A stretch of DNA of 64,000 bases from a virus: IMG/VR virus record IMGVR_UViG_3300010413_000011, positions 1 through 64,000 of that record, one strand, 5' to 3'. The notes beneath the pieces were generated by a model that was not told where the DNA came from, did no database searches, and saw nothing but the letters and a program-made list of their open reading frames with translations. Positions 35,795 to 53,961 of the stretch are shown here, piece by piece (the first letter of the stretch is position 1; each line of letters begins with the position of its first letter). The position numbers and the translations under genes are program-made.

Positions 35795-36403
35795 ATGAAA
35801 TTCTTAATCGCAGTTTTAGGTACTCATGGCTCTGGCAAAACTGAAATCTGCCAAAAAGTCTCAAGTCTTATACGTCACGCATTCTCAGACCTATCTGTTT
35901 CCTCAGTAGATAAAAAAGATAGTGTACCGAGATCTTTGGCAGAGGCAACGCAGTTATATAAAAATATCGACCATCGAACCCAGGTAGAAATTTGTTTTAA
36001 GGTTTTAACAAATGCGATGGCCGGTCTTGTCTATTATGACGTCGTTTTTGTCGATCGACTATTGGTCGATTCTATTGCTTATATTCGAACGGCAGAAAAA
36101 GTCGATCGCGGTATTATTGCCTCTCTAGATTCAGCAATTCGTTTTTTGTTTTTCGAGAGTCCTCATATCCATACCATAGTAGCTGTTCCGGCACCGAGTT
36201 TTCCCCTACCTAAAGATAATTTCAGATTCGAAGACGAAGAGTATCGCCAATATATTTCAAGATTGATTACGCGAGAACTAATTCGAATGGCTATACCGTA
36301 TTATTTTCTTGATCAAAAATCTTTAGATGAACGAATAAGTTATCTGACGAGTTACGTCAGTTCAGCAATATCATTATCGAAATTGAAAGGAGAAAAACAT
36401 TGA
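35795..36403 (+). CDS. P-loop deoxynucleotide kinase-like protein
   Basis: A 202-residue protein with Walker A GTHGSGKT (residues 9-16), then a DVVFVDRLLVDS motif near 86-97 that resembles the DR(Y/L) substrate motif of thymidylate and AAA_28-type kinases. A C-terminal helical lid is seen. It probably phosphorylates a nucleoside monophosphate and belongs to the nucleotide-supply group with the genes downstream. The ribosome site AGGGAGG lies 12 bases before the ATG. Confidence 0.6.
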   Translation: MKFLIAVLGTHGSGKTEICQKVSSLIRHAFSDLSVSSVDKKDSVPRSLAEATQLYKNIDHRTQVEICFKVLTNAMAGLVYYDVVFVDRLLVDSIAYIRTAEKVDRGIIASLDSAIRFLFFESPHIHTIVAVPAPSFPLPKDNFRFEDEEYRQYISRLITRELIRMAIPYYFLDQKSLDERISYLTSYVSSAISLSKLKGEKH

Positions 36404-37215
36404 AAGTAGCTCACATAGTCGGTATTAACCATTTGAATTTGGTCAGGGATAAAAATTTCCATTTAGTTCTTGCTCATCTTCTCGACGAAAGTGCCACCTA
36501 CAGAAATTTCTATAAGGAAGTAGGTAACGAAGGTGCCTTTTTAATCTTGGACAACTCTGCGTTTGAGTTAGGCGAACCTTATCCGCCAGAGGAAATGATA
36601 AAACTAGGTAACGAAATCAACGCGTCGGAAATTATGGCGCCCGAGATTTACCAAGATGGCAGAGGAACGATCGAAGTAGTCGAGGAGTTTGCCGCAAAGG
36701 TTAAAGAATTAACTAATAAGAAATGGAATATCATAGCAACCATCCATGGTAAAACCTTCGACGATTGGATGAATTGTTTCAAAGCTATTATCTCGATCAA
36801 CAACATAACCACGATTGGTTTATCTTGTAGAGCGGCAGAGTATTTCACTGACCTACGGTCGAGTTCAGTCACCACCCAAAGAACTTTTAATCGGATTGGT
36901 CTTACTCATATCCTCAATAAAACCTGCGTCGGCAAGTTTACTCCTTTGAGACAGTACCATCTATTAGGTTCCACCGATCCTGTCCTCGAGTTAACTGTTC
37001 AAACGAAATACGATTGGATAAGAAGTATTGATACGAGTTCCGCTTTTGCTCATGGTTGTCAAGGTATAAACTTTGGTACCCGGGCTCTGGCAACCGAGAG
37101 GATAGGGGATATCGATTTCAATACGCCCCACGATCCTCATAAGATAAAAACCATTGTTCACAATATGAGAATACTTGACGAATTGGCAGGAGAAGAAAAT
37201 GATTTTACCAGGTAA
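36400..37215 (+). CDS. TIM-barrel protein resembling tRNA-guanine transglycosylase/DpdA
   Basis: A 271-residue protein starting with TTG on the stop of the kinase gene, behind AAAGGAG. The pattern AFLILDNSAFELGE (about 47-60), IMAPEIYQD, WNIIATIHGKT, IGLSCRA, HLLGS and IRSIDTSSAF (about 205-214) is that of a TGT-like barrel, with an Asp after the first strand pair (DNSAF) and a second Asp in SIDTSS. These positions correspond to the catalytic acids of base exchange enzymes. The four-residue zinc site of tRNA TGT is not seen. A DNA- or nucleotide-base exchange role is inferred. Related genes lie at 49.5-51.8 kb. Confidence 0.5.
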   Translation: MKVAHIVGINHLNLVRDKNFHLVLAHLLDESATYRNFYKEVGNEGAFLILDNSAFELGEPYPPEEMIKLGNEINASEIMAPEIYQDGRGTIEVVEEFAAKVKELTNKKWNIIATIHGKTFDDWMNCFKAIISINNITTIGLSCRAAEYFTDLRSSSVTTQRTFNRIGLTHILNKTCVGKFTPLRQYHLLGSTDPVLELTVQTKYDWIRSIDTSSAFAHGCQGINFGTRALATERIGDIDFNTPHDPHKIKTIVHNMRILDELAGEENDFTR

Positions 37216-37729
37216 CAAAGTAATAGACTTTATAGAAACTGATTTACCAAGGACCTACTATCCCGAAGGTGGGGTCTCTCCTGAACAATTACAACCGAAC
37301 GGAGTCGACTGTCGTTTATTTTTTGTAAGGAGAGTCGACCCGGATCGTATTATGATATTTCGTAAAAATGAGAAGGATGTACCAGAGCTGGAGATGGTCG
37401 AACCTATAATCCATAGGTCCTTTCATGAGCGCGACAAACAACACGCCTTTTTCAATTTGGAACCTGGGGCCTATAATTTTGAAATGGCCGAACGAATAAA
37501 AGTTCCTCAAGGTATTGCGGCAATGTTCTTTGGTCGGAGTACCCTTAACCGAAACGGAATACTCCTTTTGTCGTCGGTCTATGATACGGGTTATGACGGT
37601 AGAATAGGAGGGACGGCGTATGTCTGGCGGCGGATACAAATAGAAATGTTTGTTCGAGTCGGACAAATTGTTTGTTGGGAAGCTCACGAAACGAAGGAGT
37701 ATGACGGTCAATATGGCGACGGAAAGTAA
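37199..37729 (+). CDS. dCTP deaminase / dUTPase superfamily protein
   Basis: A 176-residue protein starting at ATG 37199 behind CAGGAG and overlapping the upstream gene by 17 bases. It shows the fold's signatures: GVDCRL near the start (about 35-40), FFGRSTLNRNGI (motif 2, with the Arg-Ser pair) and YDTGYDGRIGGTAYV (motif 3). Enzymes of this superfamily hydrolyse dUTP or deaminate dCTP and keep uracil out of DNA. A UDG-polymerase fusion directly follows, which suits that role. Confidence 0.75.
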   Translation: MILPGNKVIDFIETDLPRTYYPEGGVSPEQLQPNGVDCRLFFVRRVDPDRIMIFRKNEKDVPELEMVEPIIHRSFHERDKQHAFFNLEPGAYNFEMAERIKVPQGIAAMFFGRSTLNRNGILLLSSVYDTGYDGRIGGTAYVWRRIQIEMFVRVGQIVCWEAHETKEYDGQYGDGK

Positions 37730-40313
37730 ATGGCATAAGACTTCAATCGATCTTACTAGAAGTAAGCAGGGTCGTAAGACCTGTTTGAAGTGTCCTTGGT
37801 TTAAAAAGTTCGAGCAGGGAAAAACCGATTCGATCAACTTTTGTGTTGGCGGATACGGTTTAGTACCTGCCGATGTAATGATTGTTGGTGAGGCCCCGGG
37901 TTGGCCCGAGGCTAATGCGCGACCTCATCAACTTCATCCTTTCATGGGAGAGGATTCCTATATATTAGATTTCCTATTAAAAAAAGCAGGACTATCTCGT
38001 CGACAATTCTATATAACTAACGCTATCAAATGCAAACCTCTTCAATATGGCAAAGTCCCGATCGATATTGTTAACCGTTGTGCCTCACATCTTTGGTACG
38101 AAATAGAAATGGTTCAACCTAAATTAATAATTGCTCTAGGTGCTGACGCTCTCAAAGCCTTGACAGGTAGACCATTTTCGATAACACAGGAAAGAGGATT
38201 CAGGCGAACGTTTAGTGACTTCGTCAATTTAGAGAGAATAGGACTAGCTGAATCTAATTGGTCGGATCTCGAGGACGATTTCGGAGACATTTGGGTTTAT
38301 CCGATGAGACATCCTCATTTACTTTATAAAGATCCTAGATGGTTATCTACTTTTAAGTTCGACTTTAAAGAAATAAAACGGTTGATGAGAAAAGGATTTC
38401 CCGACCATAACGAACCACCTAAGATTAAAGTTACCGATACTCTAGAACGTTTCGAAGAATTCTATAAGGCGATTCAGAAGGCACCGGCTTACTCGGTCGA
38501 TACTGAAACGACCTCCACTAGTATGATTGATGCCAAAGCTCTCTGTATCTCCTTTTCATGGGGTAGAAAAAATACCTGGGTCGTACCACTGAGGGGCCAA
38601 GGAGGAAAAAGATTTTGGCAATCTGGTGCCGATGAAATTATTCGGAAGGACCTAAAACAAATTTTTAAGGAGAAAAATATTTATCGTATTGCTCAAAATT
38701 TTAAATTTGATTATAACGTTCTCCGGAAGGAAGGATTCGGTGAGGTTTATTTTGAGTTCGACACAATGACTGCTCATCACGTTATCGACGAGACCGGTCC
38801 TTACGATTTAGAAAATATTGCCAACTTTTACGGACTCGACCTTGGTTATTGGCCAGATTCGATTTGGAAATATACTCCTCGGAATAAAAAAGCTCAGTTT
38901 GCTGACATTCCAAATAAGATTCTCTGGCAATATACCGGAGTTGACGCGTGGACTACTTGGGAACTAGGTAAGCCGAACGGTGGTAGAGTTAGGACTGAAT
39001 TAGAGAAGAACCCTAATTTAGTTCGACTGGTTAAAGAAGTTACCTTCCCACTTTCTTATCCGTTAGCAGATATGGAATACTATGGAGTCAAGTTAAACCT
39101 AGATCGAATTGGGAAATTGGAAAAATTATATCAGAAAAAATTGGATATGATAACTGGTAGACTCCGCGTACTAGCGAATAAAGAAGATTTCAATCCCTTT
39201 TCTCCCGATCAAGTTATAGAATTACTATTCAATAAGTTGAAGATGACTACTAGAGGACTAACACCTGGTCGCAAACCAAAGACCGATGCCGATGTACTAG
39301 AGATAATGTTAAGAGAGGAACGGTCGCCCAAAAAGAGAACGATCCTTCGTCTCATAATTTTAGCTCGAAGTTACAGAGCAACAATTTCTAGAGAATTACA
39401 AGGGCTCCGAAAATTGGCTCCAGACGGAAATATAAGAACGACCTATTTGATTCCAGGAACCAGAACTGGTCGTCTCTCTTCAATAGGTCCCGACTTACAA
39501 AATGTCAAACGCGGTCCTGAAATCAGAAATTGTTTTACAGTAGAAGAGGACTCATTATTTGGAGGCGGTGACTACAAGGCGATAGAACTTCGACAAGCAG
39601 CGTTGTTAAGTGGTGACCCGGAGATGTTAGATATCTTTGAGAAGGGTATAGATTTTCATACAGTCACGACAGCTCGAGTTCGTAAAATACCAGAGGAGGA
39701 AGTTACCAAAGAACAGAGAGCACGAGGAAAAGCGGTTGTGTTCGGTGGAATAATGTATGGTAGATCGATTCAAACAATGGCCGACGAATATGATTTACCA
39801 TACGAAGAAGTAGAAGATATGATGGATGGAATAGCCGAGTTGTACCATGTATTCATGAAATGGCGTGAAAGCAATGTACGAGAGGCGAAAGAAAAGTTTT
39901 ATTTGGAAACGGCTTTTTGGAAACGGACTAGACATTTCCCTGCTTTCGAGATGATCGCGGATAGTAGATTGGCTAAGGTTCAGAGATTAAGGAATCAGTT
40001 AGGTCGCGAATTCAAACAGACGGTAGAGAAAACTGTTCGAGAATGTTACAATTATAGGATTTCCTCGCCGGCTGCCGATTGGGTTAATAAAGGAATTATT
40101 AGGCTTCATACTCGACTTCGCGAAGAGAATATGAAAACCTATTGTTTAATGCAAGTTCATGACGCGCTGTATTTGAGAGTATTTAAAAAAGAAGTTTTAT
40201 TCGTTAAACAGTTGATTAAAGAGGAAATGGAAACCACCTTGAGGTATAAAGGCAATAGACTTAAATTAGAATTTGATACTGAAATGGGAAGGTGTTGGGA
40301 TGAAAAAGAGTGA
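37713..40313 (+). CDS. Uracil-DNA glycosylase / family A DNA polymerase fusion
   Basis: An 866-residue protein from ATG 37713 (an ATG at 37701 is also possible; AAGGAG precedes both). Residues ~20-230 are a family 4-type UDG with iron-sulfur ligands C24/C27, C107 and C123, plus GEAPG (59-63) and TNAIKCKP. Residues ~250-440 are a 3'-5' exonuclease: VDTETTS, NFKFDYNVL, YTGVDAWTT. The rest is a Pol I core: GGDYKAIELRQ (motif A), RARGKAVVFGGIMYG (motif B, with Phe at the O-helix site) and MQVHDALYL (motif C, with Ala where most Pol I enzymes have Glu). SPO1-type polymerases also carry a UDG-like domain. This is the replicative polymerase. Confidence 0.88.
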   Translation: MATESKWHKTSIDLTRSKQGRKTCLKCPWFKKFEQGKTDSINFCVGGYGLVPADVMIVGEAPGWPEANARPHQLHPFMGEDSYILDFLLKKAGLSRRQFYITNAIKCKPLQYGKVPIDIVNRCASHLWYEIEMVQPKLIIALGADALKALTGRPFSITQERGFRRTFSDFVNLERIGLAESNWSDLEDDFGDIWVYPMRHPHLLYKDPRWLSTFKFDFKEIKRLMRKGFPDHNEPPKIKVTDTLERFEEFYKAIQKAPAYSVDTETTSTSMIDAKALCISFSWGRKNTWVVPLRGQGGKRFWQSGADEIIRKDLKQIFKEKNIYRIAQNFKFDYNVLRKEGFGEVYFEFDTMTAHHVIDETGPYDLENIANFYGLDLGYWPDSIWKYTPRNKKAQFADIPNKILWQYTGVDAWTTWELGKPNGGRVRTELEKNPNLVRLVKEVTFPLSYPLADMEYYGVKLNLDRIGKLEKLYQKKLDMITGRLRVLANKEDFNPFSPDQVIELLFNKLKMTTRGLTPGRKPKTDADVLEIMLREERSPKKRTILRLIILARSYRATISRELQGLRKLAPDGNIRTTYLIPGTRTGRLSSIGPDLQNVKRGPEIRNCFTVEEDSLFGGGDYKAIELRQAALLSGDPEMLDIFEKGIDFHTVTTARVRKIPEEEVTKEQRARGKAVVFGGIMYGRSIQTMADEYDLPYEEVEDMMDGIAELYHVFMKWRESNVREAKEKFYLETAFWKRTRHFPAFEMIADSRLAKVQRLRNQLGREFKQTVEKTVRECYNYRISSPAADWVNKGIIRLHTRLREENMKTYCLMQVHDALYLRVFKKEVLFVKQLIKEEMETTLRYKGNRLKLEFDTEMGRCWDEKE

Positions 40314-41652: not shown

Positions 41653-42570
41653 ATGATCTTAATTATCGACGGTAACAATGCGGCCTTCAGGGCTAATTCG
41701 GTTCTTACCATGAGTTGGAAGACCAAAAGGACAAGTGCCATTTTCGGAACTTTATCGATAGTTCGGTCAGTCATGAACAGAGTGGATCCTAGTAAAGTTA
41801 TCGTCGTATGGGACATCGGCGGTTCAAAATACCGAAAAAGATTGTTTCCTGAGTATAAAAAGAAACGAATCGAAAAAAGAGATGACGATGATTTCCAAAC
41901 TTTCATCGACCAAGTTCAAATACTCAGAGATCGAATCTTTCCAGTTCTAGGGATTACTCAAGCGGTAAAGTCTGGAGTCGAAGCGGATGATGTTATATAT
42001 CGTCTCGCAAAATACTACTCGGTTAAAAAGGAAAAAGTGATTATACTTTCGGGAGATACCGACTTGTATCAATTGGTGAGCAAACGAGTTTCAATAATCT
42101 CACCTAGTCGGAAACGAAACGATTTTATAACCAATAAAAACTTTACCCGGATTACTAAAGGATTGGATCAAGATCAATTTGTGTCATACAAAATGTTAGT
42201 CGGAGATCCTTCCGATGGTATCCCGGGCGTACCAGGTTTCGGTGACAAAACTTCTCGTGTGGCCTTGGGACACTATAAGTCGGCAGAGGAGGCGGTCGAG
42301 CATTATGACGAACTGGTTAAACTGATGCCTCGGATTGCCAGATATGTAACCAGTAAGAAGGCAGAGAGTATCGTTGACCGAAACCGAAAATTAATCGATT
42401 TAAGTATCTACAATCGACCGAAACGGGTAAAGGCTTCAACGAAATTATTAATTGAGTCTGAACTAAATGAACAGGAATTTCGAAAAATTTGTAAAGAGTT
42501 CGGGTTCGTTTATATACTATCTAATTTTATGGATTGGATTGAACCATTCAAAGAGTTGGACAGGGGGTGA
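41653..42570 (+). CDS. 5'-3' exonuclease / flap endonuclease
   Basis: A 305-residue protein with the PIN/FEN nuclease acids: ILIIDGNNAAF (D6), VVWD, GVEADDVIY (about 112-120), SGDTDLYQL (about 135-143) and LVGDPSDGIPGVPGFG, the helix-hairpin-helix DNA-binding site near residue 180-195. It removes RNA primers and flaps in lagging-strand synthesis, as T4 RNase H or the Pol I N-domain does; the phage Pol I lacks that domain. The next gene begins within 3 bases. Confidence 0.85.
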   Translation: MILIIDGNNAAFRANSVLTMSWKTKRTSAIFGTLSIVRSVMNRVDPSKVIVVWDIGGSKYRKRLFPEYKKKRIEKRDDDDFQTFIDQVQILRDRIFPVLGITQAVKSGVEADDVIYRLAKYYSVKKEKVIILSGDTDLYQLVSKRVSIISPSRKRNDFITNKNFTRITKGLDQDQFVSYKMLVGDPSDGIPGVPGFGDKTSRVALGHYKSAEEAVEHYDELVKLMPRIARYVTSKKAESIVDRNRKLIDLSIYNRPKRVKASTKLLIESELNEQEFRKICKEFGFVYILSNFMDWIEPFKELDRG

Positions 42571-42572
42571 CC

Positions 42573-43550
42573 ATGTATGGTTATCAAATTTATCTGACCC
42601 ACGGCTGTAATCTGCGGTGTCGGCAATGTGGTGTCTGGAGGGCCAAATCGATCGGTCGGGAAAAACAATGGACCGAATGGGCAGCTATCCTACCGACCAT
42701 GGTCCAGGTTTTCGAGAAAACATTTCATCGGAAACCAGCGTTCAAATTGATGGGAGGCGAACCAACAATTTATCCGGGTTTCGAAGAAGTTTGTAGAGCA
42801 ATTAAAACACTCGGTTGTAATATTTCTGTTCTGTCGAATGTTAGTAAAACCTGGCAGTGGGAAATGTTGACTCGAGTTTTGGGAAAAGGGGATTCAATTT
42901 TCGTTTCAATGGATTTCTTTCCGAATAGAAGGAAACAATATGAGATGAGATCCGATCCGGCAGAAGAGAAGGCTTTTGCTGCCCTCCATTTCATCGAGAC
43001 CTTTCCCGACAACCAAACCGATTTCGAGGTCGGCGTAAATATTACGGTATCTTCGGATACCTTGCCTAGATTATCTGGCCTTATTGATTGTTTGGTTCAG
43101 TTGAACGCTAAGATGAATATTTGTCTTCGGCAAGGCAGCGAACCGAATGAGGACGAACTCTACCACGTTCTTAGGGCACCGAATCGAACTGGCAATTTAA
43201 ACCAGGAGGAGGTCGACCAGTTAGTCAAAATTATGCTATCCGACTTATTGCCAGTTCCAGATCTTTTTCTCGGATCAAAGGAATACATTAGGATAATTCA
43301 GGTTCACGGAGCGAATAACGATTGGCATTGTAGAGATCAACTCCACCTTCCGTATATTTATTTGGATTGCGATGGTTCGGTAATGGCGTGTCCAGACGTC
43401 GCCTTACCAGATCCTCAGGTTTTACCTTTAGCGAGTCCGACTCCTTTTGTTTGGACCGAGAGGATGTTGAAGACCTATCGTGCCAAATGTTGTGGCTGTA
43501 CTATTTCGTCAGCGATGACCGATGTTGTCGCAGCACTCTGGGAGAAATAA
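42573..43550 (+). CDS. Radical SAM enzyme with C-terminal cysteine-rich region
   Basis: A 325-residue protein; ATG 42573 follows GGGGGTGA. The N-terminus has the cluster motif GCNLRCRQC (C12, C16, C19), FKLMGGEPTIYPGF (SAM-binding GGE) and ISVLSNVS. The C-terminal part has more cysteines in LDCDGSVMACPD and KCCGC, as in SPASM/twitch auxiliary clusters. Such enzymes make radicals for peptide, cofactor or base chemistry; the substrate cannot be told. The first cysteine loop is not of the QueE type. It is the first gene of a tight cluster with an aldehyde:ferredoxin oxidoreductase two bases downstream. Confidence 0.75.
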   Translation: MYGYQIYLTHGCNLRCRQCGVWRAKSIGREKQWTEWAAILPTMVQVFEKTFHRKPAFKLMGGEPTIYPGFEEVCRAIKTLGCNISVLSNVSKTWQWEMLTRVLGKGDSIFVSMDFFPNRRKQYEMRSDPAEEKAFAALHFIETFPDNQTDFEVGVNITVSSDTLPRLSGLIDCLVQLNAKMNICLRQGSEPNEDELYHVLRAPNRTGNLNQEEVDQLVKIMLSDLLPVPDLFLGSKEYIRIIQVHGANNDWHCRDQLHLPYIYLDCDGSVMACPDVALPDPQVLPLASPTPFVWTERMLKTYRAKCCGCTISSAMTDVVAALWEK

Positions 43551-43551
43551 A

Positions 43552-45462
43552 ATGATACTTTCTGCTCCTAAAATTGCCCATATTGGCTTGGACAATCGAG
43601 TTTACCAAACTCATTGCCTTCATCCGAAAAATTTTTTACAATTTTTGGGAGGGCGAGGATTGAACAGTCATCTGACTTTTCAAAACCGCTCTATTAATTT
43701 CCCGATGGTTTTTATTACTCCAGGGTTGTTGACTGGAACTCTGTGTCCATCGTCGTCTCGCTGTACTATTGGTACTAATATATCACCCTCTTTAGGAAGA
43801 TGGGCTGATGGGAATCTCGGAGGATTTTTTGGAGCTGAACTAAGAAGAGCAGGTTGGAATCAAATTTGGTTAGAAGGTATTTCCGAAAAACCTATTTTAA
43901 TATATATTGAAAACCAAAAAATAAAAAGTGTTGACGCTGGTAATCTTTGGGGACTCGGAGTTCATGACACAACTGAGAGAATCCGAGAAGAGTTTGGGCC
44001 GGACGCTCAGTCTCTTGTAATCGGGCCGGCCGGAGAAACCCAGGTCGCGTACGCCTGCGTTATGTCGGGCGATAGAGCGGCAGGAGGAGGCGGTATTGGT
44101 GCCGTCCTCGGGAAAATGAAAGTCAAGGCGATCGTTGTTCGGGGAACTAGAGGTCTTGAACCTGCCCAACCCGAGGAGTTTATGGACGCTTGTCTGGCGG
44201 CTCATAAACAAGTTCGATCGAATCCTTTGTTCGGTGAGTTTTCACAATCTGGTACTTCAATTATTACATCCATTTATAAAGGAGTCAAAGCACTACCGGT
44301 TAATTATTGGGATAAAGGAGATTCGCCACACGCTTACAAATTCGAACCAGGAAATTTGAAGACGAAAGTTGTAAAAAGTCGAGCTTGCTATGGTTGTTCG
44401 ATTCATTGCTCTCATGAACTTACTTTCGGGTTCGAAGGGGTAGAGTACGAGGCGTTGAACGGGCTCGGTCTTAAAATTGGAATCACCGATCTAGACGAAT
44501 GCCTTCGTTTGATAAAATGGTTCAACAACCTGGGTCTCGATGTAGTCCAGACCTCTGGCGTTCTAGGTATGTTGATGAAAATGACCGAAGATGGCTTCGC
44601 GATGAATATGGATCGAATTAAATTTGGAGATGCTGAGGCTATTTGGACGCGAGTTGCTAGTTGGATGGATAGTAGAAGAAGAGATCTCAGTTTTTGGAAT
44701 GGTCTTGACGCCGGGTTCGAAAGATATTCTGAGATATTTCCTCCAGGTCCTGACGGAAATAAGGGCGATGTTCTTAAACGATTCCGTCGAAAGTATTCGG
44801 TCGATATTAAAAATTCAATGCCACCCAGCCTAGACTTCAGGGTTCCAGAAAACTTTGCGGCTACTATTGCTTGTATGACGGCTACTCGAGGCGCTGACCA
44901 TCTTAGAAGTTTGGCACCGATTGAGGCCTACGGTCAGTGGTACGGGAGAGAGGATCTCGAGGCGATGGCTATTCATTTTGGAATACCATCTGATATTATG
45001 AAAGAATGGTTGGACCTGGACGGGTTCGATCCTAAAATAAATTCGAAAAGTATAAGAGGAAAGGTTGCTATCATTTCTTACTTTCAAGATCAAAATGCTG
45101 TGACCGATGCCCTGGGTCTTTGTCGATTCGCCTCAAGTTGGAGAATGGGAGTCGGCCTCGAGTTGATGGCGGAGATGGTTTCGACTTTTCTTGGTATAGA
45201 TATGAACTGGTGTGGCCTGCGAGCAGTGGGCCAGAGGATAACCGTCTTAGAAAGATATCTGAACTCGAAAGTGTACGGCATGAATAAGTTCAGTGATTAT
45301 CCTCCCGAGAAATTTTTCGTAGAGCCTTTGAATGGGAGGAATCAACTCTCACATCATGACGTAAGATCAGCCCGCGATCAGTTCTATGAGTATAACGGAT
45401 ATGACGAGCAGGGATGTCCGACACCGGATACTTTTGAAAAATTAGGATTGGTTGTCAAATGA
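43552..45462 (+). CDS. Aldehyde:ferredoxin oxidoreductase family tungstoenzyme
   Basis: A 636-residue protein of full family length. It has GGRGLN (33-38), PGLLTGT (57-63), a GGGGIGAVLGKMKVKAIVV pterin-binding motif (178-196), the [4Fe-4S] ligands C279, C282 and C286 in CYGCSIHC and a fourth Cys at 524 in DALGLCRF, VEYEALNGLG (298-306) and RGADHLR (446-452). These are the conserved sites for a bis-tungstopterin and an adjacent cluster, so the enzyme looks intact. The family oxidises aldehydes or, in reverse, reduces carboxylates or activated rings with ferredoxin. It needs a host tungstopterin cofactor. It sits between a radical SAM gene and its likely electron-transfer ferredoxin. This is not a usual phage gene. 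Confidence 0.88.
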   Translation: MILSAPKIAHIGLDNRVYQTHCLHPKNFLQFLGGRGLNSHLTFQNRSINFPMVFITPGLLTGTLCPSSSRCTIGTNISPSLGRWADGNLGGFFGAELRRAGWNQIWLEGISEKPILIYIENQKIKSVDAGNLWGLGVHDTTERIREEFGPDAQSLVIGPAGETQVAYACVMSGDRAAGGGGIGAVLGKMKVKAIVVRGTRGLEPAQPEEFMDACLAAHKQVRSNPLFGEFSQSGTSIITSIYKGVKALPVNYWDKGDSPHAYKFEPGNLKTKVVKSRACYGCSIHCSHELTFGFEGVEYEALNGLGLKIGITDLDECLRLIKWFNNLGLDVVQTSGVLGMLMKMTEDGFAMNMDRIKFGDAEAIWTRVASWMDSRRRDLSFWNGLDAGFERYSEIFPPGPDGNKGDVLKRFRRKYSVDIKNSMPPSLDFRVPENFAATIACMTATRGADHLRSLAPIEAYGQWYGREDLEAMAIHFGIPSDIMKEWLDLDGFDPKINSKSIRGKVAIISYFQDQNAVTDALGLCRFASSWRMGVGLELMAEMVSTFLGIDMNWCGLRAVGQRITVLERYLNSKVYGMNKFSDYPPEKFFVEPLNGRNQLSHHDVRSARDQFYEYNGYDEQGCPTPDTFEKLGLVVK

Positions 45463-46079
45463 GAAAAGAACGAATTAAAAGTCTATGGAGTCATCTTACA
45501 TCGACACCGGTCGAAATCGTTCGAGGTTTTTCTCGTGCCGTTGTTTTGGTGACAAGGCAGTTAATCCTTTTAGAGAATCCTGTAGAAAGGATCTTACCGA
45601 AGTCAGCGCTCCTCTGTTCTTTTCAGCCTAAAAAACTTTCATACGAAAAGGCTGACTCATACCTGGGTTTCCTCCTAACCAAAAGGATTAGAGTCGATTA
45701 TACTAAATGTACGGGCTGTAAGGCATGCGAGTTGGCGTGCTCTTTAAACCATTACGGACGCTGCGAACCCGAGGAATCGAGAATCAGAATTGACCGACAA
45801 TGTAAAAAGTCGGCAGAGTTCTTTCCTTTCGTTTGTCAACACTGTACGATGCCCGAATGCGTTGTGGTCTGCCCGTCTGGAGCTTGTACGAGAACAAAAG
45901 AAGGTCTCGTAGTCGTAGACCCGGAACTTTGTATTGGTTGTAAACTTTGTATAATCGTTTGTCCGCTGAGTTCAGCGGCATGGAATTGGAGATTAGGTCA
46001 ATCGATGAGATGCGATCTTTGCGAAGGTGAACCGGTCTGTGTCAAGGTTTGCTCGACTAAGGCCATCGATTTTCATTGA
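45459..46079 (+). CDS. Ferredoxin-like electron-transfer subunit (four [4Fe-4S] sites)
   Basis: A 206-residue protein whose ATG overlaps the stop of the oxidoreductase gene. Residues ~75-206 have cysteine patterns for four clusters: CTGCKACELAC, CQHCTMPECVVVC, CIGCKLCIIVC and CDLCEGEPVCVKVC, as in HycB-type and AOR-associated ferredoxins. The first ~70 residues are a basic extension with a hydrophobic stretch (AVVLVTRQLILL) not usual in this family. It probably carries electrons to or from the tungstoenzyme. Confidence 0.85.
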   Translation: MRKERIKSLWSHLTSTPVEIVRGFSRAVVLVTRQLILLENPVERILPKSALLCSFQPKKLSYEKADSYLGFLLTKRIRVDYTKCTGCKACELACSLNHYGRCEPEESRIRIDRQCKKSAEFFPFVCQHCTMPECVVVCPSGACTRTKEGLVVVDPELCIGCKLCIIVCPLSSAAWNWRLGQSMRCDLCEGEPVCVKVCSTKAIDFH

Positions 46080-46090
46080 GGAGATAGATC

Positions 46091-46351
46091 ATGGTAGAAA
46101 CAGAGCAACAAAAAGTCTATGAGGCTCTAGTTGGTTTAGGATATATTTACGGAGTGAATTGCGCACTAGAGCATATAGGCATTGACCATCGAATAATGCC
46201 AGAACAGGATGACGAGAAAGAAGGAATACTCTATCCTTGGTACGATAAAGGACCATCGGGACAAATGGAAAAGAAATTAAAACAATTGGCAAGTAATTTG
46301 GTTCAAGATGGAATTTCAGTAGCTGACGTGGAACAATGGGGTTCGTTTTGA
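46091..46351 (+). CDS. Small hypothetical protein in the redox cluster
   Basis: An 86-residue protein, mostly helical (QQKVYEALVGLGYIYGVNCALEHI, EKKLKQLASNLVQ), with GAGGAGATA before its ATG. No motif is recognised and there is only one Cys. Packed between the ferredoxin and UbiD-like genes, it may be a small partner of one of them. Confidence 0.5.
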   Translation: MVETEQQKVYEALVGLGYIYGVNCALEHIGIDHRIMPEQDDEKEGILYPWYDKGPSGQMEKKLKQLASNLVQDGISVADVEQWGSF

Positions 46352-46379
46352 TCCCTAAAGGTCAAAGAAGGAGAAGATT

Positions 46380-47957
46380 ATGAAATGGAATGAAGGAATC
46401 TTTAAGGCAAGAGAATTTCCAGACGAGCCGTTGAGTATGTTTTCTTGCCTAGCGGAATTGTGTAATTCGCAACCATCGGTCCCCTGGAATTATGCTGGTC
46501 GAATGATTCGAGTAACCGAAAAAGTTTCGATCGACTACGAGATAATGAAATTCGTTCGCGCTTCGGCTGACGATCCCTCTGGATTTAGCCCCGGGTTCAT
46601 ATTCGAGAATGTTTCGAGTGAGATGGCACCAGATCCGAAAACGACTCGATATCCAATCTCTGTTGTCGCTGGAATGTATGGAACCGAGGCACGAGTAAGT
46701 CGTATATTGGATTGGTGTTTAGGAACCAAAGAAAAATTCGACTTAAGTACTCCGGCCTGGCGAAAATATCAGCGAGCGTTGAACAGAACGTCACATGGCG
46801 TGGTTCGGATTTTTCCCGAAAGAGACGACTTAGGTCATGTATACGACATTCGATACGAACTCCAAGACCTTCCGATTTGTCTTCACAACGAAAGAGACGG
46901 AGGTCGATTCATCACCGGAGGTGTCCAGATCGTCTGGGATCCGGAATTCGAATGTTATGTCTCTGGTATTCACCGAATGAAGGTCATCGATAAAAATACT
47001 CTCGGGTGTTTGGCTACCGGCGAAAGAAGGATCGGTAGAGCGATAATGAAATGGCATGAACGAGGATTTAAGGCACCTGTTATTACATTAATAGGAGCCG
47101 CACCTTGCGACGTTTTCGCGTCTCAAGCCAAAGTACCTCATAACACGGATAAGTATGCTGTCGCAGATCGCTTCACACCCGGAAACGAGAAGAGAGATTT
47201 TTGTGGTTGGACTCCTTCCAAACATGCGAAATACGCTCCCGACCACTTACATATTATCCCTACAGATTCTGAAATTGTTATTTTGGGATTAGTTCCATTA
47301 GGCGAACCGAACAAACCAAACCTTATTAACGACAACCCGTTTGGGGAATTTCCTGGTACCTATTCCTTTTCGAATACTTCCGCGGCTTGGAGAGTAGAAG
47401 TAGAATATGTTATGACCAGATCCGACGCACCGATCTATCAAACCATGACCACCGGATTCCCTGTGCTCGAGGATCATATTCTTTGTGGCACGGCGAATGT
47501 TCCTTACCTCTTCGAAATTCTTCAAAGAGCCTGTTCAGAAGTGGTCGATATTAGCTTGGGAAAAGAAGGCAACTATGTTTTCGATGCTCACGTTTCCATT
47601 AAAAAGAGAATGTCTGGCGAAGCGCGCAATGTTATTTTAGCAGCGCTCTCGACCGTCACTATAAAAAGTGTTTGGATATACGACGACGACATCGACGTTC
47701 ATAATCCTCGTGACCGGCAGTTCGCATGGAACACGAGATACCAGCCTGCGACCGATACAATTATTATTGGCCATCCTTTGGTTGGTTCGAGTCTCGATCC
47801 ATCTTGTCCTGTCTTTCGGCACACGACTAAGGTAGGTTTTGACTGTACCAAACCTTTAGGTCAGGAGGATCGATACAAAAAGGCTTTGTGGCCAAAGGAT
47901 GAAATAGAAATCTATTCGAAAAAAGTACTCGATTTAATCGATAAGTGGGAGGACTAA
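46380..47957 (+). CDS. UbiD-family (prenyl-FMN-dependent) decarboxylase
   Basis: A 525-residue protein of full family length, with AAGGAGA before the ATG. Its motifs follow UbiD: LPICLHNERDGGRFITGGVQ (164-183), SGIHRMKV with R199, NPFGEFPGTYSF with E323 (the usual proton-relay Glu), a DAPIYQT segment, the PVLEDH motif and the C-terminal DIDVHNPRDRQFAWNTRYQP and GSSLDPSC. The residue five before E323 is Asp318, where most members have Glu. UbiD enzymes remove or add a carboxyl group on aromatic or unsaturated rings using prenylated FMN made by UbiX; no UbiX gene is seen here. A phage copy next to an AOR is very unusual. Confidence 0.85.
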   Translation: MKWNEGIFKAREFPDEPLSMFSCLAELCNSQPSVPWNYAGRMIRVTEKVSIDYEIMKFVRASADDPSGFSPGFIFENVSSEMAPDPKTTRYPISVVAGMYGTEARVSRILDWCLGTKEKFDLSTPAWRKYQRALNRTSHGVVRIFPERDDLGHVYDIRYELQDLPICLHNERDGGRFITGGVQIVWDPEFECYVSGIHRMKVIDKNTLGCLATGERRIGRAIMKWHERGFKAPVITLIGAAPCDVFASQAKVPHNTDKYAVADRFTPGNEKRDFCGWTPSKHAKYAPDHLHIIPTDSEIVILGLVPLGEPNKPNLINDNPFGEFPGTYSFSNTSAAWRVEVEYVMTRSDAPIYQTMTTGFPVLEDHILCGTANVPYLFEILQRACSEVVDISLGKEGNYVFDAHVSIKKRMSGEARNVILAALSTVTIKSVWIYDDDIDVHNPRDRQFAWNTRYQPATDTIIIGHPLVGSSLDPSCPVFRHTTKVGFDCTKPLGQEDRYKKALWPKDEIEIYSKKVLDLIDKWED

Positions 47958-48383: not shown

Positions 48384-49349
48384 ATGAAAATCGAATTAAT
48401 GCGCCACACGGTTGAACCAGAAGAGCTGTTGGAAGAACTGGTAGAGCTTAGTTACCGGACGCAACACTTCCCGAAACACCCTGCTCTTGTCGAATTTAAG
48501 AGTGGTCGTCAAGTTCCTTTGACCCAATTGAAAAATCTTACCATGATTCCGAAACCCGGTACTGTGATCCCTGGGTTTGAAAAAGACGACGTAGAAGTTG
48601 TTAAGGTGATCCCCAGGACAGCAGAGAAGGCAGTCAGGTTCGCCATCGCCATCGGACATTTCGCTTTGTTCCGTCAGGTAACTGTAACCTGGAGAGTCGA
48701 ACTCAGCAGGAAATCTGTTCTTCATTATTTGAGATACCAACATACAGCAGAGAACATGGTGTCACAAAAATACCTCGACCAAGGTCAGTTCGAATTTATA
48801 ATGCCGACAACCCGAGATTATCCTCCCGAGGAACTCATGGTCTATAAAGAAGCAATGCAAACGATTCAGTCATATTATGAACGCCTTCGGAATTTCGGCT
48901 GGGACCCGGAGGATGCTCGACTGGTTTACCCGAACTCTGCTCTTCAAAAATTTATCTTCACCGCTAATATGGAAACCATGCGTCGGCTATTTGATATCCT
49001 ATGCGACGAGGACTACGTCGATGAGATGCATCGGTTCGGTTTGGCCATGTTGGCTACCATTAAAAAAGTTATGCCAGCGTTCGTATATGATTACAGATTC
49101 TATTCGAGGAATGACGACGGACATATTTATGCGAAGCGTCGGAGAAGAAAAGGTGGAGACAACGTTAAAGTGAATTGGACTGATCCGAATTGGATGGAGG
49201 AAGATGAGAAACGAGAAACCGACGAAGTTTGTCGACTCCAAGAAAAAATACCTAATGAGTTAATAAATTTTGCGAATGAAGGTCAACGATTCTTCACTGT
49301 AGTTCCTGAAAACGAAATTCCAGAACCGGAACATTGGGAAACAGAATGA
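48384..49349 (+). CDS. Divergent ThyX-like flavin-dependent thymidylate synthase homologue
   Basis: A 321-residue protein with AGGAGGA before its ATG. The overall ThyX outline is visible: GHFALFRQVTVTWRVELSR, then RYQHTAENMVSQKY (117-130), which aligns with the RHRxxSxNExSxRY motif but keeps only R, N, S and Y, and later ARLVYPNSALQKFIFTANMETMRRL, typical of the C-terminal half. ThyX makes dTMP from dUMP with FAD and methylenetetrahydrofolate. With several key residues changed, it may act on another pyrimidine or group, or may be inactive. It lies in the cluster with UbiD-like and DpdA-like genes. Confidence 0.65.
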   Translation: MKIELMRHTVEPEELLEELVELSYRTQHFPKHPALVEFKSGRQVPLTQLKNLTMIPKPGTVIPGFEKDDVEVVKVIPRTAEKAVRFAIAIGHFALFRQVTVTWRVELSRKSVLHYLRYQHTAENMVSQKYLDQGQFEFIMPTTRDYPPEELMVYKEAMQTIQSYYERLRNFGWDPEDARLVYPNSALQKFIFTANMETMRRLFDILCDEDYVDEMHRFGLAMLATIKKVMPAFVYDYRFYSRNDDGHIYAKRRRRKGGDNVKVNWTDPNWMEEDEKRETDEVCRLQEKIPNELINFANEGQRFFTVVPENEIPEPEHWETE

Positions 49350-49525
49350 AAGTAGTCGCAACACAACTAAAACTCGAGAACATAGAAATTCTCCACAATG
49401 CGAAGAAGGGAGATACGCTCTCCCTAAAAATAATTAATACGCAGGAAGTGCCACTTGATGAAGACGGACTCGACCCAGACAGCTGTCTCTTGGTTCTCTT
49501 CGGACGATTGGGAACCGGGAACTAA
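49346..49525 (+). CDS. Small hypothetical protein overlapping the DpdA-like gene
   Basis: A 59-residue product whose ATG overlaps the stop of the ThyX-like gene (ATGA). It overlaps the start of the next gene by 68 bases in another frame. The first ~45 residues look like a small beta domain (VVATQLKLENIEILHNAKKGDTLSLKII). No clear ribosome site is seen, so translation would depend on coupling. It may not be real. Confidence 0.4.
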   Translation: MKVVATQLKLENIEILHNAKKGDTLSLKIINTQEVPLDEDGLDPDSCLLVLFGRLGTGN

Positions 49526-50597
49526 CGATAGAATAGGTTTTGAAAAAGTTTGCAATAAAGGAGTGCGCCGAGACACTTACAACGGTTTATACTTTAAGGG
49601 TGGATCAGGCGCCTCTGAATTTTTCAAAACCGAGCCAGATCAAAAGCAGATCAAAATTCATCGAACCAAGATCTTCTTAACCACTACTCGAGCACAACAC
49701 ATGTGGGGCCTTCTCGACGCGAACTACCCTTACATTTTAATGTCGTTTTGGTACTACAAGACCGTGACAAATGTTTTCGGTTCCCTCCGGAATGCCTTTG
49801 CTGCTCGAGATAAAAACATCGACGATTTCGAAATTATGGTAGATAGCGGCTCGTACAGTGCTACGGTCAAAGGTACCTCGGTAGATCTGGATACTTATAT
49901 TGAATGGCTCTACCACGAAGAGGATAATGTCGATTGGTATGTTAACCTCGATACTCAGTTCAAACCAGAAGAGGGACTTCGAAACTGGGCGATCCTTTGT
50001 GCGAACGGATTACATGACGCCATTCATGTCCACCATAGACCAGAGCCTTGGAAGTACTGGGATATTATAGCAGATCATTGTGGAGAGTTTGGAGGTCTTA
50101 GTCCGATGCCTCGAGCAAAGAGAGGCGTTAAACTCGAGTACTTTACCAAAGCTCATTCAATGCACCCACAGAAGAAACTTCATTGGTTTGGCTCTGTCGA
50201 TAAAGAGTTGGCCAAAATGTTCGATGTATATTCTATGGACTGCTCGAGTGCTGACGCGGTCGCTTATCGCGGGATTGTTTGGACTCCTTGGGGAGCGGTT
50301 AACCTGGGTTTTAACCCGAACTACAGTAATCACATTGATCGCTTACCTCTTGACATCCGCTCTAAGGTCACCGAATGGTTTATGACACATGGTTTTGAGC
50401 TTCATGATTTAAGGCCCGGGAGACCCTATATGCCTTCGCATAGATTCAGAATTTATTTCAACGCACTGGGTTATCTCGCGTCCATGGTCGAGATTGAAAA
50501 AGAGAAAAGTTTAATTGAGTTACCAGATCCAGAATGGATTCGGTCTTCGGAAATTTATACTAATTATGAAAGTGAGTTACCAAAAGGATGGAAGTGA
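49458..50597 (+). CDS. DpdA/TGT-like base-exchange protein, copy 1
   Basis: A 379-residue TIM-barrel protein; ATG 49458 follows CAGGAAG. Patterns shared with DpdA and tRNA-guanine transglycosylases: FEIMVDSGSY (D129), VDWYVNLDTQF, AIHVHHRPEPWKYW, FGGLSPMP, LHWFGS and YSMDCSS with a second Asp. DpdA swaps guanine in DNA for a 7-deazaguanine base. The first ~65 residues are an extra domain. It is paralogous to the gene at 50821. No preQ0-synthesis genes (folE, queD, queE, queC) are in the window, so the base would come from the host or from elsewhere in the genome. Confidence 0.62.
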   Translation: MKTDSTQTAVSWFSSDDWEPGTNDRIGFEKVCNKGVRRDTYNGLYFKGGSGASEFFKTEPDQKQIKIHRTKIFLTTTRAQHMWGLLDANYPYILMSFWYYKTVTNVFGSLRNAFAARDKNIDDFEIMVDSGSYSATVKGTSVDLDTYIEWLYHEEDNVDWYVNLDTQFKPEEGLRNWAILCANGLHDAIHVHHRPEPWKYWDIIADHCGEFGGLSPMPRAKRGVKLEYFTKAHSMHPQKKLHWFGSVDKELAKMFDVYSMDCSSADAVAYRGIVWTPWGAVNLGFNPNYSNHIDRLPLDIRSKVTEWFMTHGFELHDLRPGRPYMPSHRFRIYFNALGYLASMVEIEKEKSLIELPDPEWIRSSEIYTNYESELPKGWK

Positions 50598-50824
50598 TGG
50601 CAACCTCGTATTTTAGAGGTCACAAAGGTTGGTACGACAATATTGAAAAAGTATGGAAGTATTTCGATACCAATCTTCCTATCGATCCTCGTCGCCCTTG
50701 TGTCCGATGTGGTAAAGAACCCACTCCCGAAGGTCATGACGCGTGTTTGGGACGGCTAGACGGTGCGTGGTCAGCCTGTTGTGGTCATGGAGTAATAGAA
50801 CCATATTTAAAAATTACATTATGA
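50597..50824 (+). CDS. Small zinc-binding protein between the DpdA-like genes
   Basis: A 75-residue protein whose ATG uses the last base of the preceding stop. Cys/His-rich: CVRCGKEPTPEGHDACLG (about 35-52) and SACCGHG (about 59-65) could bind one or two zinc ions. Similar short proteins with the pattern CxxCGxxPTxEGxDACLG occur in many phages without known role. It is overlapped on both sides by DpdA-like genes, suggesting a partner. Confidence 0.6.
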   Translation: MATSYFRGHKGWYDNIEKVWKYFDTNLPIDPRRPCVRCGKEPTPEGHDACLGRLDGAWSACCGHGVIEPYLKITL

Positions 50825-51843
50825 GAAACCCTACAACATTTAAAGTCGGAACCGGTCGAGTCATGGTCCCGCACGATCACAAAAAGACTCGACTTTTTCT
50901 TGCCGTTAGTAACATGACAAGTTTTAGACCGATCGTCCGCTATACCTATCCATATCTTTTGATGAGTTATGCCTTTCTGAGAAGGTGGTGTCGGAGTTGG
51001 CGCTGTAACTCGATGAAGGAACTCTTTGCTTTATATGGTGGTGACATTCGAGACTTCAAAATAATGATTGACAGCGGTTCCTATACAGTCACGACTAAAG
51101 GAATTAATATAACAATTGACGACTATATAGAATTCCTATATGAAGAATGGGGTTCCTATAATTGGTATGTCAATTTGGATCTCCAATTTAAACCCGAAGT
51201 TGGCCTCGAGAACTATTTAATAATGTGCGCCAACGGCCTTCACGACGCAATTCATGTTCATCACCGACCGGAACCCTGGAAGTATTGGGATATGATTTGT
51301 AACGATATGGGTCCGTATGCCGGGCTCAGTCCCATGCCCAGGGCTTCAATGACGATCAAGAGAGAATATTTTTTGAAGGCCCATTCAATGCATCCCGATG
51401 TAAAAGTTCATTGGTTTGGGTCTGGCGCAATAACATTAATCAAACAGTTCGGTCCTTACTCTGTAGATGTTTCCTCTTATACTCAGATGGCTGGAATGGG
51501 TCATTGCTATTTTCCTTTTGGTACTTTCTACTTTGGTAGAAATACTTCGATTAAAAATTATTATGGAAACCTCGATAGTTCAATTCGAAAACAAATAAGA
51601 AAGTATCTCAAAACCGTTCCCCATTTTGTCGAAGATCGATTTATTAAACCCGAAGATCTGTTGTCACCAGTTCAAGATGAAACGGAAGCTCGTACCGCAG
51701 TCAATGTATGGTACTTCATGACTCATCTTCAATCGGCAATAAACGAAGAAAGAAATCTTTTGTCTCTTGAGGATGGTGACTTAATTCGCTACTCACCGTG
51801 GTATCACGGATGGGAAGATAAACCAATAGAGAAATGGAGTTGA
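50821..51843 (+). CDS. DpdA/TGT-like base-exchange protein, copy 2
   Basis: A 340-residue paralogue of copy 1, sharing long identical stretches such as LHDAIHVHHRPEPWKYWD, KAHSMHP and VHWFGS. The chosen ATG (50821) overlaps the preceding stop. It keeps both candidate catalytic acids: FKIMIDSGSY (D84) and YSVDVSS. It lacks the N-terminal extension of copy 1. Two adjacent, diverged copies may form a heterodimer, as some transglycosylases do, or act on different bases. Confidence 0.62.
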   Translation: MRNPTTFKVGTGRVMVPHDHKKTRLFLAVSNMTSFRPIVRYTYPYLLMSYAFLRRWCRSWRCNSMKELFALYGGDIRDFKIMIDSGSYTVTTKGINITIDDYIEFLYEEWGSYNWYVNLDLQFKPEVGLENYLIMCANGLHDAIHVHHRPEPWKYWDMICNDMGPYAGLSPMPRASMTIKREYFLKAHSMHPDVKVHWFGSGAITLIKQFGPYSVDVSSYTQMAGMGHCYFPFGTFYFGRNTSIKNYYGNLDSSIRKQIRKYLKTVPHFVEDRFIKPEDLLSPVQDETEARTAVNVWYFMTHLQSAINEERNLLSLEDGDLIRYSPWYHGWEDKPIEKWS

Positions 51844-51846
51844 AAA

Positions 51847-53961
51847 ATGACAGAATTGAATCCAAACGTTGTAACGTTATTGAAAAAAAGATACCTAAAA
51901 ATAAAAGAGGACGGATCACAAGAAACACCCGACGAGATGTTCGAGCGCGTTGCCAAACACGTCGGTGGCGCTGTATCCGTTGGAGCTTGGGAAGTGTTTA
52001 AATCAGTCCTCTGCGAATGGGATAGCGCCACAACTTATTTCGAAGAAGTAATAAAAAGTTTACATTTTATGCCTAGCACCCCTTGTTTGATGAATGCCGG
52101 TTCTCCAAACGGTCAACTATCTGCCTGTTTTGTTTTGCCGGTCAAGGACACCTTGTTAGGACCTGGGTCGATCATGGGAACTCTCCAAGATATGGTAGCC
52201 GTTCATCGATCTGGCGGAGGGACCGGATTCGATTTCTCTAACACAAGGCCGAAAGGAGCAACAGTTTGGTCGACCGGAGGGAAGACGGATGGACCTCTGG
52301 CATGGATTTCAATTTACGATGAGGCGTCTGAAGCTGTCAAACAAGGCGGTAAACGACATGGTGCGAATATGGGAATCCTAAGTATCCACCATCCCGACAT
52401 ACTCAGTTTTATAAAAGCTAAACAAGAAAGTGGCAAGTACGAAAATTTCAATTTTAGCGTTGCCGTTACAGACGAGTTTATGGACATGCTAAAAGAAAAT
52501 CCTGGTGAAAACTGGTCTGCGTTTTTCGATAACGGGGATGAATTGATTCGCGAGGAGTTCAATGTTGGTGAACTCTGGAATTCACTTTGTCAATCGGCGT
52601 GGGAGAGCGGTGAACCAGGAGTTTTCTTCATTGATGTCGTTAACGAATTTAATCCTTTTGAGGAAAAAATAACTTCGACCAATCCGTGTGGTGAACAACC
52701 TTTGTTACCGTATGAGTCTTGTAATTTAGGTCATATTAATTTGTCGAAGTTATATGATCCTAATGGCGAAGACTTTATTAATCATGAGTCATTCAGAAAA
52801 CTTTGTTGGTTGGCAGTTTTATTTCTTGACTCTTGTATTGACATCAATTGTTATCCAATAAAACAAATTGAGACCGCTACCTTCAACACAAGAAAAATAG
52901 GAGTTGGAGTTTTAGGCTTTGCCGATTTATTATTGAAGGCAGGAGTACCTTACTCTTCTGATCGAGCTGTCGAAATTGCAGATGTGATTGCTTCGTCTCT
53001 TACCAGATATACAGATCAAGCATCAACAGTTCTCGGTAAAGCTCTAGGTAACTACCCTGCCGTCGTTATGTGTAAAGATGTAAGTCGAAGAAAACACTTT
53101 CCGAAACGGCGAAACCTTACAACAACTACGATCGCTCCAACGGGCATTACTTCTTGGATATGTGGTGCTTCGTCAGCTATTGAACCGGTGTTCGCTTGGG
53201 AAACAGACAAATATGTTCTCGAGCAGACTATGAAAGAGGTTCATCCTATCTATAAAAAATGGCGTGAAGAGAATCCTCCTAATACAGTAAATTTACCAGA
53301 ATATTTTGAAGTCGCTCACGACATACCGGCCGAGCAACATGTTAAGGTCCAAGCGGCTTTTCAAAAACATATTCACTCGGGAGTATCGAAAACAATTAAT
53401 CTCCCCGAGTCGGCAACGCCCGAAGACATTTCAAACATTTATAAATTTGCTTGGGAATTAGGATGTAAGGGAGTTACGATCTACCGAGATATGAGCAGAG
53501 ACAATCAGGTACTTGCTAAAAAAGGTTCTCGGATTAAACAAGTCGACGTAGAACGACCGGATTCAATACCAGGAGAAATTCATAAAATTCAGGTAGACAT
53601 TGGTAAGGAGAAATTATCTAACGTTTATTGTGCGGTCGGTTTCAAAGAACAGGGTGTACCATTCGAGGTTTTCATAATTGCTCATCCAAAAGGAATGAAA
53701 GATGTTCAATTTATGGAAACTCTTACTCGATGCGTTTCTCTCTGCCTAAGATATAAAGTTCCCCTGCCCTCCCTTATTAAACAGTTGAAAAAAGTAGAGG
53801 GTACAGCCCTGGGTTCTCTACCGACTGAAATTGCTCGAGTCCTCGAGTTGTATACAGAGAACCCGACCTGGGTTTGTCCAGAATGTAATTGTCGACAACC
53901 GATCGAAGGAATCACTCGGTGTCGAACTTGTAGGAATTGTAATCACCAAGAGTGCGGATAA
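51847..53961 (+). CDS. nrdJ: Class II (cobalamin-dependent) ribonucleotide reductase
   Basis: A 704-residue protein with the catalytic set: [67 protein letters not shown] (cysteine and glutamate of the radical site) and [12 protein letters not shown]. The C-terminus has Cys pairs (CPEC, CRTCRNC) for substrate-reduction electron delivery. Class II enzymes use adenosylcobalamin and need no oxygen, in keeping with an anaerobic host. No B12 riboswitch is seen upstream. It supplies dNTPs for replication. Confidence 0.88.

Follow-up and report, generated by a model that had tools for sequence, protein, structure and literature searches.

The window analysed here, the whole stretch of 64,000 nucleotides, comprises bases 1-64000 of a linear, 92.7-kb and possibly incomplete IMG/VR virus record. 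An operon on its plus strand carries two DpdA-family transglycosylase genes in tandem: P0001 (copy a, 379 aa, 49458..50597), whose start codon is uncertain, and P0003 (copy b, 340 aa, 50821..51843). Between them lies P0002 (50597..50824, plus strand), which encodes a 75-aa Cys/His protein and overlaps P0001 by 1 nt (TGATG) and P0003 by a 4-nt stop/start (ATGA). The initial annotation had described this arrangement, tandem copies around a Cys/His-rich protein with stop/start overlaps on both sides, and its coordinates are exact. The ThyX thymidylate synthase gene (48384..49349, plus strand; PF02511, E 3e-23) lies upstream of P0001 in the same operon, and a ribonucleotide reductase gene (51847..53961, plus strand; PF02867, E 5e-103) follows 3 nt after P0003. 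A possible 59-aa gene at 49346-49525 starts at the ThyX stop (ATGA) and overlaps the assigned P0001 start by 68 nt. Neither tRNA genes nor Rfam families were found in the whole record.

Both tandem proteins match phrog_887, the phage family named 'queuine tRNA-ribosyltransferase' (DpdA), with E 1.4e-15 for P0001 and E 3.6e-21 for P0003, and neither matches Pfam or NCBIfam. Relatives were located at 14 viral loci by conserved-pattern scanning, and the two copies were aligned with relatives from viral loci and two annotated phage DpdAs, invariance being assessed over 15 aligned sequences. Besides M1, the invariant columns of P0003 are D84, S85, Y102, D120, N131, H197, S214, D216, and G227. All of their equivalents are kept in P0001 (D129, S130, Y147, D165, N176, H242, S259, D261, and G272), where H193 also occupies a conserved position. 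The aspartate of the DSG motif and that of the S-x-D motif are present in both copies and invariant in the 15 aligned sequences, and catalytic roles can be proposed for both. D129 and D84 had earlier been put forward as catalytic acids; they are conserved in both copies, but they occupy one alignment column (DSG) and are not two acids. In the TGT mechanism a second conserved acid is the nucleophile, and by this analogy the invariant S-x-D aspartate, D261 in P0001 and D216 in P0003, is the likely nucleophile. In place of the HxGE motif found in most phage DpdAs, both copies have HHRPEPW.

Structure prediction points to the same family. An AlphaFold model built with the two copies as input reached a pLDDT of only 42 and was discarded, whereas the model of P0003 from a 13-sequence alignment has a pLDDT of 82 and a pTM of 0.82. 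Foldseek places an archaeosine TGT at the top for this model, followed by other TIM barrels, and upon re-alignment in VIA all entries listed are TGTs or DpdA 7ui4, with Z scores of about 20-21. The match to 7ui4, a DNA preQ0 insertase, has a Z of 20.4 and an rmsd of 3.1 A over 276 residues at 16% identity. As modelled, P0003 is a TGT-type (beta/alpha)8 barrel. The DpdA/TGT-like identity given in the initial annotation is thus supported by the phrog_887 matches, the TGT/DpdA barrel of copy b, and the invariant residues of both copies; the annotation had proposed structure prediction and named a fold other than the TGT-type barrel as the contrary outcome, and for copy b the predicted fold is that barrel. 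The protein resembles bacterial DpdA 7ui4 in fold, but it is shorter, has no detectable single-copy sequence match to it, and reaches it only at E 0.36 with the family profile. The phrog_887 DpdAs of Streptococcus phages MS1 and Dp-1 and Cellulophaga phage phi38:2 share the sequence family, the invariant residues, and the TGT-type barrel, and differ in that the present record has two diverged tandem copies, HHRPEPW for the usual HxGE, and no preQ0 genes.

BLASTP aligns P0001 and P0003 over 318 aa at 42% identity (E 5e-82), and their Smith-Waterman score of 642 compares with a maximum of 56 in 200 shuffles. The long identical motifs reported earlier for the two copies are real, the longest common block being CANGLHDAIHVHHRPEPWKYWD, within which many codons differ synonymously. 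Different codons are used at 85 of the 130 identical degenerate residues, and synonymous divergence is saturated and therefore has no estimate. In the maximum-likelihood tree the two proteins are sisters with a support of 100/100, joined by a common stem of 2.98 changes per column and with tips of 0.86 and 0.93. Judged from the synonymous codon differences within identical residues, the pair arose by an old duplication, not a recent one, and selection on the protein has maintained both copies.

Each of the 16 other DpdA-bearing records has a single complete copy (2 other matches, both partial, overlap that same gene), and a tblastn search of 50,697 phage records with P0003 finds one place per matching record, a pattern that describes this sample, in which many viral records are fragments. 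Compared with these records, an old duplication in which both active sites seem to be intact is unusual. It raises a testable question, namely whether one phage writes two different deazaguanine marks or whether two subunits are required. The eukaryotic queuine transglycosylase QTRT1/QTRT2 is a heterodimer of two paralogous TGT-fold subunits that acts on tRNA, and QTRT2 has lost catalysis. By analogy, P0001 and P0003 could form an obligate heterodimer in which one copy catalyses and the other mainly binds DNA, as might be expected of old paralogues that have stayed together, their genes adjacent and overlapping in a way that suits coupled translation. This is rather unlikely, since the invariant residues are intact in both copies, unlike in QTRT2, and the single complete copy in 16/16 other DpdA records indicates that a partner is not generally needed. 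IMG/VR scans with P0001, P0003, their alignment, and the UbiD, aldehyde ferredoxin oxidoreductase (AFOR), and ribonucleotide reductase proteins of the operon confirmed no close relative, and two scans of 84,980 bacterial and archaeal genomes likewise confirmed none; both used short exact peptide patterns, which are weak evidence of absence. A degenerate HHRPEPW pattern hit 23 loci, none of which encodes a homologue.

The intervening P0002 has no match in Pfam, PHROG, or NCBIfam. Its position with overlaps on both sides and its Cys/His-rich sequence led to the earlier suggestion of a three-part enzyme, with P0002 as the zinc subunit of the P0001/P0003 pair. The distribution of its relatives speaks against this. 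They occur in Vibrio phages, Nitrincola phages, and one uncultured phage, and the DpdA and P0005 profiles (P0005 being a third TGT-like protein, described below) find nothing in the whole records of 4 representatives; conversely, the available sequence flanking 14 further viral DpdA genes contains no P0002 relative that could be found. Moreover, the cysteine spacing of P0002 differs from that of the TGT zinc site, and conserved zinc cysteines are lacking from the aligned phage DpdAs, which leaves P0002 no vacant zinc site to fill. A three-part enzyme can hardly be expected, and P0002 as a DpdA subunit was rejected on the distribution of its relatives; the putative zinc protein is probably a passenger.

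FolE, QueD, QueE, QueC, QueF, and YhhQ were not detected in the whole 92.7-kb record, searched in six frames at E values up to 10 with profiles from phage FolE, QueD, QueE, QueC, and QueF and one YhhQ sequence. The Pfam families QueC, PTPS, and GTP cyclohydrolase I are also absent from the record, and positive controls were detected. The absence of preQ0 genes noted initially for the window therefore extends, with the rest of the record now searched, to all 92.7 kb at the sensitivity used. One candidate was considered and rejected: the radical SAM protein at 42567 scores better with a general radical SAM family (1.7e-11) than with the QueE-like phrog_2076 (E 3.5e-6), its NCBIfam matches, a tungsten-oxidoreductase maturase among them, fall far below cutoff, and the QueE profile is silent. 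Since no preQ0 synthesis genes are detectable in the record, the base is most likely supplied by the queuosine or archaeosine pathway of the host. A phage DpdA commonly, but not necessarily, has its base supplied by preQ0 genes of the phage itself. In Hutinet et al. 2019 (PMC6884629), no group is larger than that of the phages with DpdA and without preQ0 genes. Of two such DpdA-only phages tested, Salmonella phage 7-11 contains a little dADG, whereas no modification is detectable in Mycobacterium phage Orion, which infects a host that makes no preQ0 (PMC6884629). In phage CAjan, DpdA is essential for modification (PMC6884629).

The preferred reading, with a probability of about 0.6, is that P0001 and P0003 are paralogous phage DpdAs that put host-derived 7-deazaguanine into DNA and are specialised or heteromeric. 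By TGT double displacement, the nucleophilic aspartate (D261/D216) would cut the guanine glycosidic bond in phage DNA, general acid/base catalysis would fall to the DSG aspartate (D129/D84), and each copy would reinsert, in place of guanine, a 7-deazaguanine base taken from the host queuosine or archaeosine pathway. The modified phage DNA would be shielded from host restriction. Since the two copies diverged long ago and neither shows signs of catalytic loss, they are probably specialised (for sequence context, strand, or base) or paired as a heteromer. The DpdA reading is supported by phrog_887 membership, the copy b fold, the invariant residues, the 100/100 sister grouping with long branches, the constraint on the protein, the lack of detectable preQ0 genes, and the precedent of DpdA-only phages. 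On the other hand, HHRPEPW in place of HxGE in both copies and the lack of detectable modification in some DpdA-only phages, Orion among them, count against it. The same altered motif and the long common stem would also suit enzymes acting on tRNA or other RNA, or enzymes that now use this fold for another reaction, and tRNA TGTs match the structure equally well. Such a change of substrate or reaction is clearly unlikely, given that the family-invariant residues are all kept in both copies under protein constraint, that the proteins belong by sequence to the phage DpdA family, and that the operon context is one of DNA precursors, with ThyX and ribonucleotide reductase. The pair would be a phage DpdA in duplicate, with its base probably coming from the host.

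A third, distant TGT-superfamily protein, absent from the initial annotation, is encoded elsewhere in the window. P0005 (271 aa, 36400..37215, plus strand) carries DNSAFE...HLLG...SIDTSS, and its gene overlaps by 4 nt that of a thymidylate-kinase-like P-loop protein (35795..36403, plus strand; phrog_2107, E 5e-11). The family profile of P0005 matches the DpdA profile with a probability of 92.7% (pairwise E 4e-7) over 154 columns, and the DSG, H-x-x-G, and S-x-D motifs line up. Single sequences score low against the same DpdA profile, 0.1-0.7% for six unrelated window proteins and just 1.3% for P0005 itself, so that P0005 is placed by its family profile. This profile comparison supports P0005 as a member of the TGT superfamily.

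Relatives of P0005 (phrog_20335/19058) are found in Flavobacterium phage immuto, where the protein is annotated as DpdA, and in Cellulophaga phiST, Weizmannia Youna2, Vibrio D479, and Campylobacter CP220 (gp056). Those of immuto, phiST, and Youna2 sit among QueD, QueE, and FolE genes, and a GTP cyclohydrolase lies near that of Vibrio D479; the annotation of CP220 shows no pathway gene within 6 kb. Each of these proteins, like P0005 itself, has as its neighbour a P-loop kinase or a kinase-like protein (6/6 P0005-type genomes, that of Youna2 being judged from the P-loop alone), although only some of the kinases are detectably related to one another. A phrog_887-type DpdA was not detected in the records of the five relatives (5/5), whereas the present record has both types. 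The DNA of CP220 has its dG 100% replaced by dADG (PMC8306585); no DpdA was recognised in the CP220 group in 2019, and a modified-dGTP route was proposed for phages such as CP220 (PMC6884629). The constant presence of P-loop kinases beside this family fits a base exchange on the nucleotide before DNA synthesis, and it is proposed that the P0005 family performs this exchange and that the neighbouring kinase would later phosphorylate the product. With a member in CP220, where dG is wholly replaced, P0005 may matter more generally. A comparison of P0005 with the DpdA2 of Vibrio phage nt-1 gave no meaningful match: in hhalign against the single nt-1 sequence (YP_008125322), the DpdA profile scores 0.9% and the P0005 profile 5.8%. 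The P0005 profile also weakly matches gp69 of Halovirus HVTV-1 (NC_020158, 33803-34963, minus strand; full-sequence E 3e-4, hhalign 84%), which lies beside FolE and is a candidate, from its sequence, for the transglycosylase not identified in HVTV-1 in 2019.

Upstream of the tandem DpdA genes and on the same strand (42567-47957), the window encodes the radical SAM protein, an AFOR (43522..45462, plus strand; PF01314, E 3e-65; PF02730, E 8e-50), a 4Fe-4S protein, and, in the same operon, a UbiD-family decarboxylase (46380..47957, plus strand; PF01977, E 4e-28; TIGR00148, E 3e-58, below its cutoff). UbiX, which makes prFMN, is encoded elsewhere in the record (89082-89699). Among solved structures, UbiD matches best 6h6v and 7p9q, which we take to be furan- and indole-acid decarboxylases, and the scores do not discriminate. 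Together with UbiX, this operon suggests an anaerobic host and unusual carboxylate chemistry, and a link of UbiD and AFOR to deazaguanine chemistry may be hypothesised. In such a scheme the operon would make a new base: UbiD (with UbiX) would decarboxylate, or AFOR would reduce, the 7-carboxy-7-deazaguanine of the host, the two DpdAs, each specialised, would insert the products into DNA, and the kinase-linked P0005 would work on the free nucleotide. As a whole, the scheme is highly unlikely.

Other features of the record concern repeats and DNA metabolism. At about 77.0-80.3 kb of the record, outside the window, convincing genes are few and a 154-nt direct repeat occurs seven times in diverged form, with TGCGGTAGGTACCGCA at the end of several units. 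At 37650-40313 of the window, a family A DNA polymerase carries a UDG-superfamily domain as an N-terminal fusion, and a second, stand-alone UDG-superfamily protein is encoded at 90309-90974 of the record.
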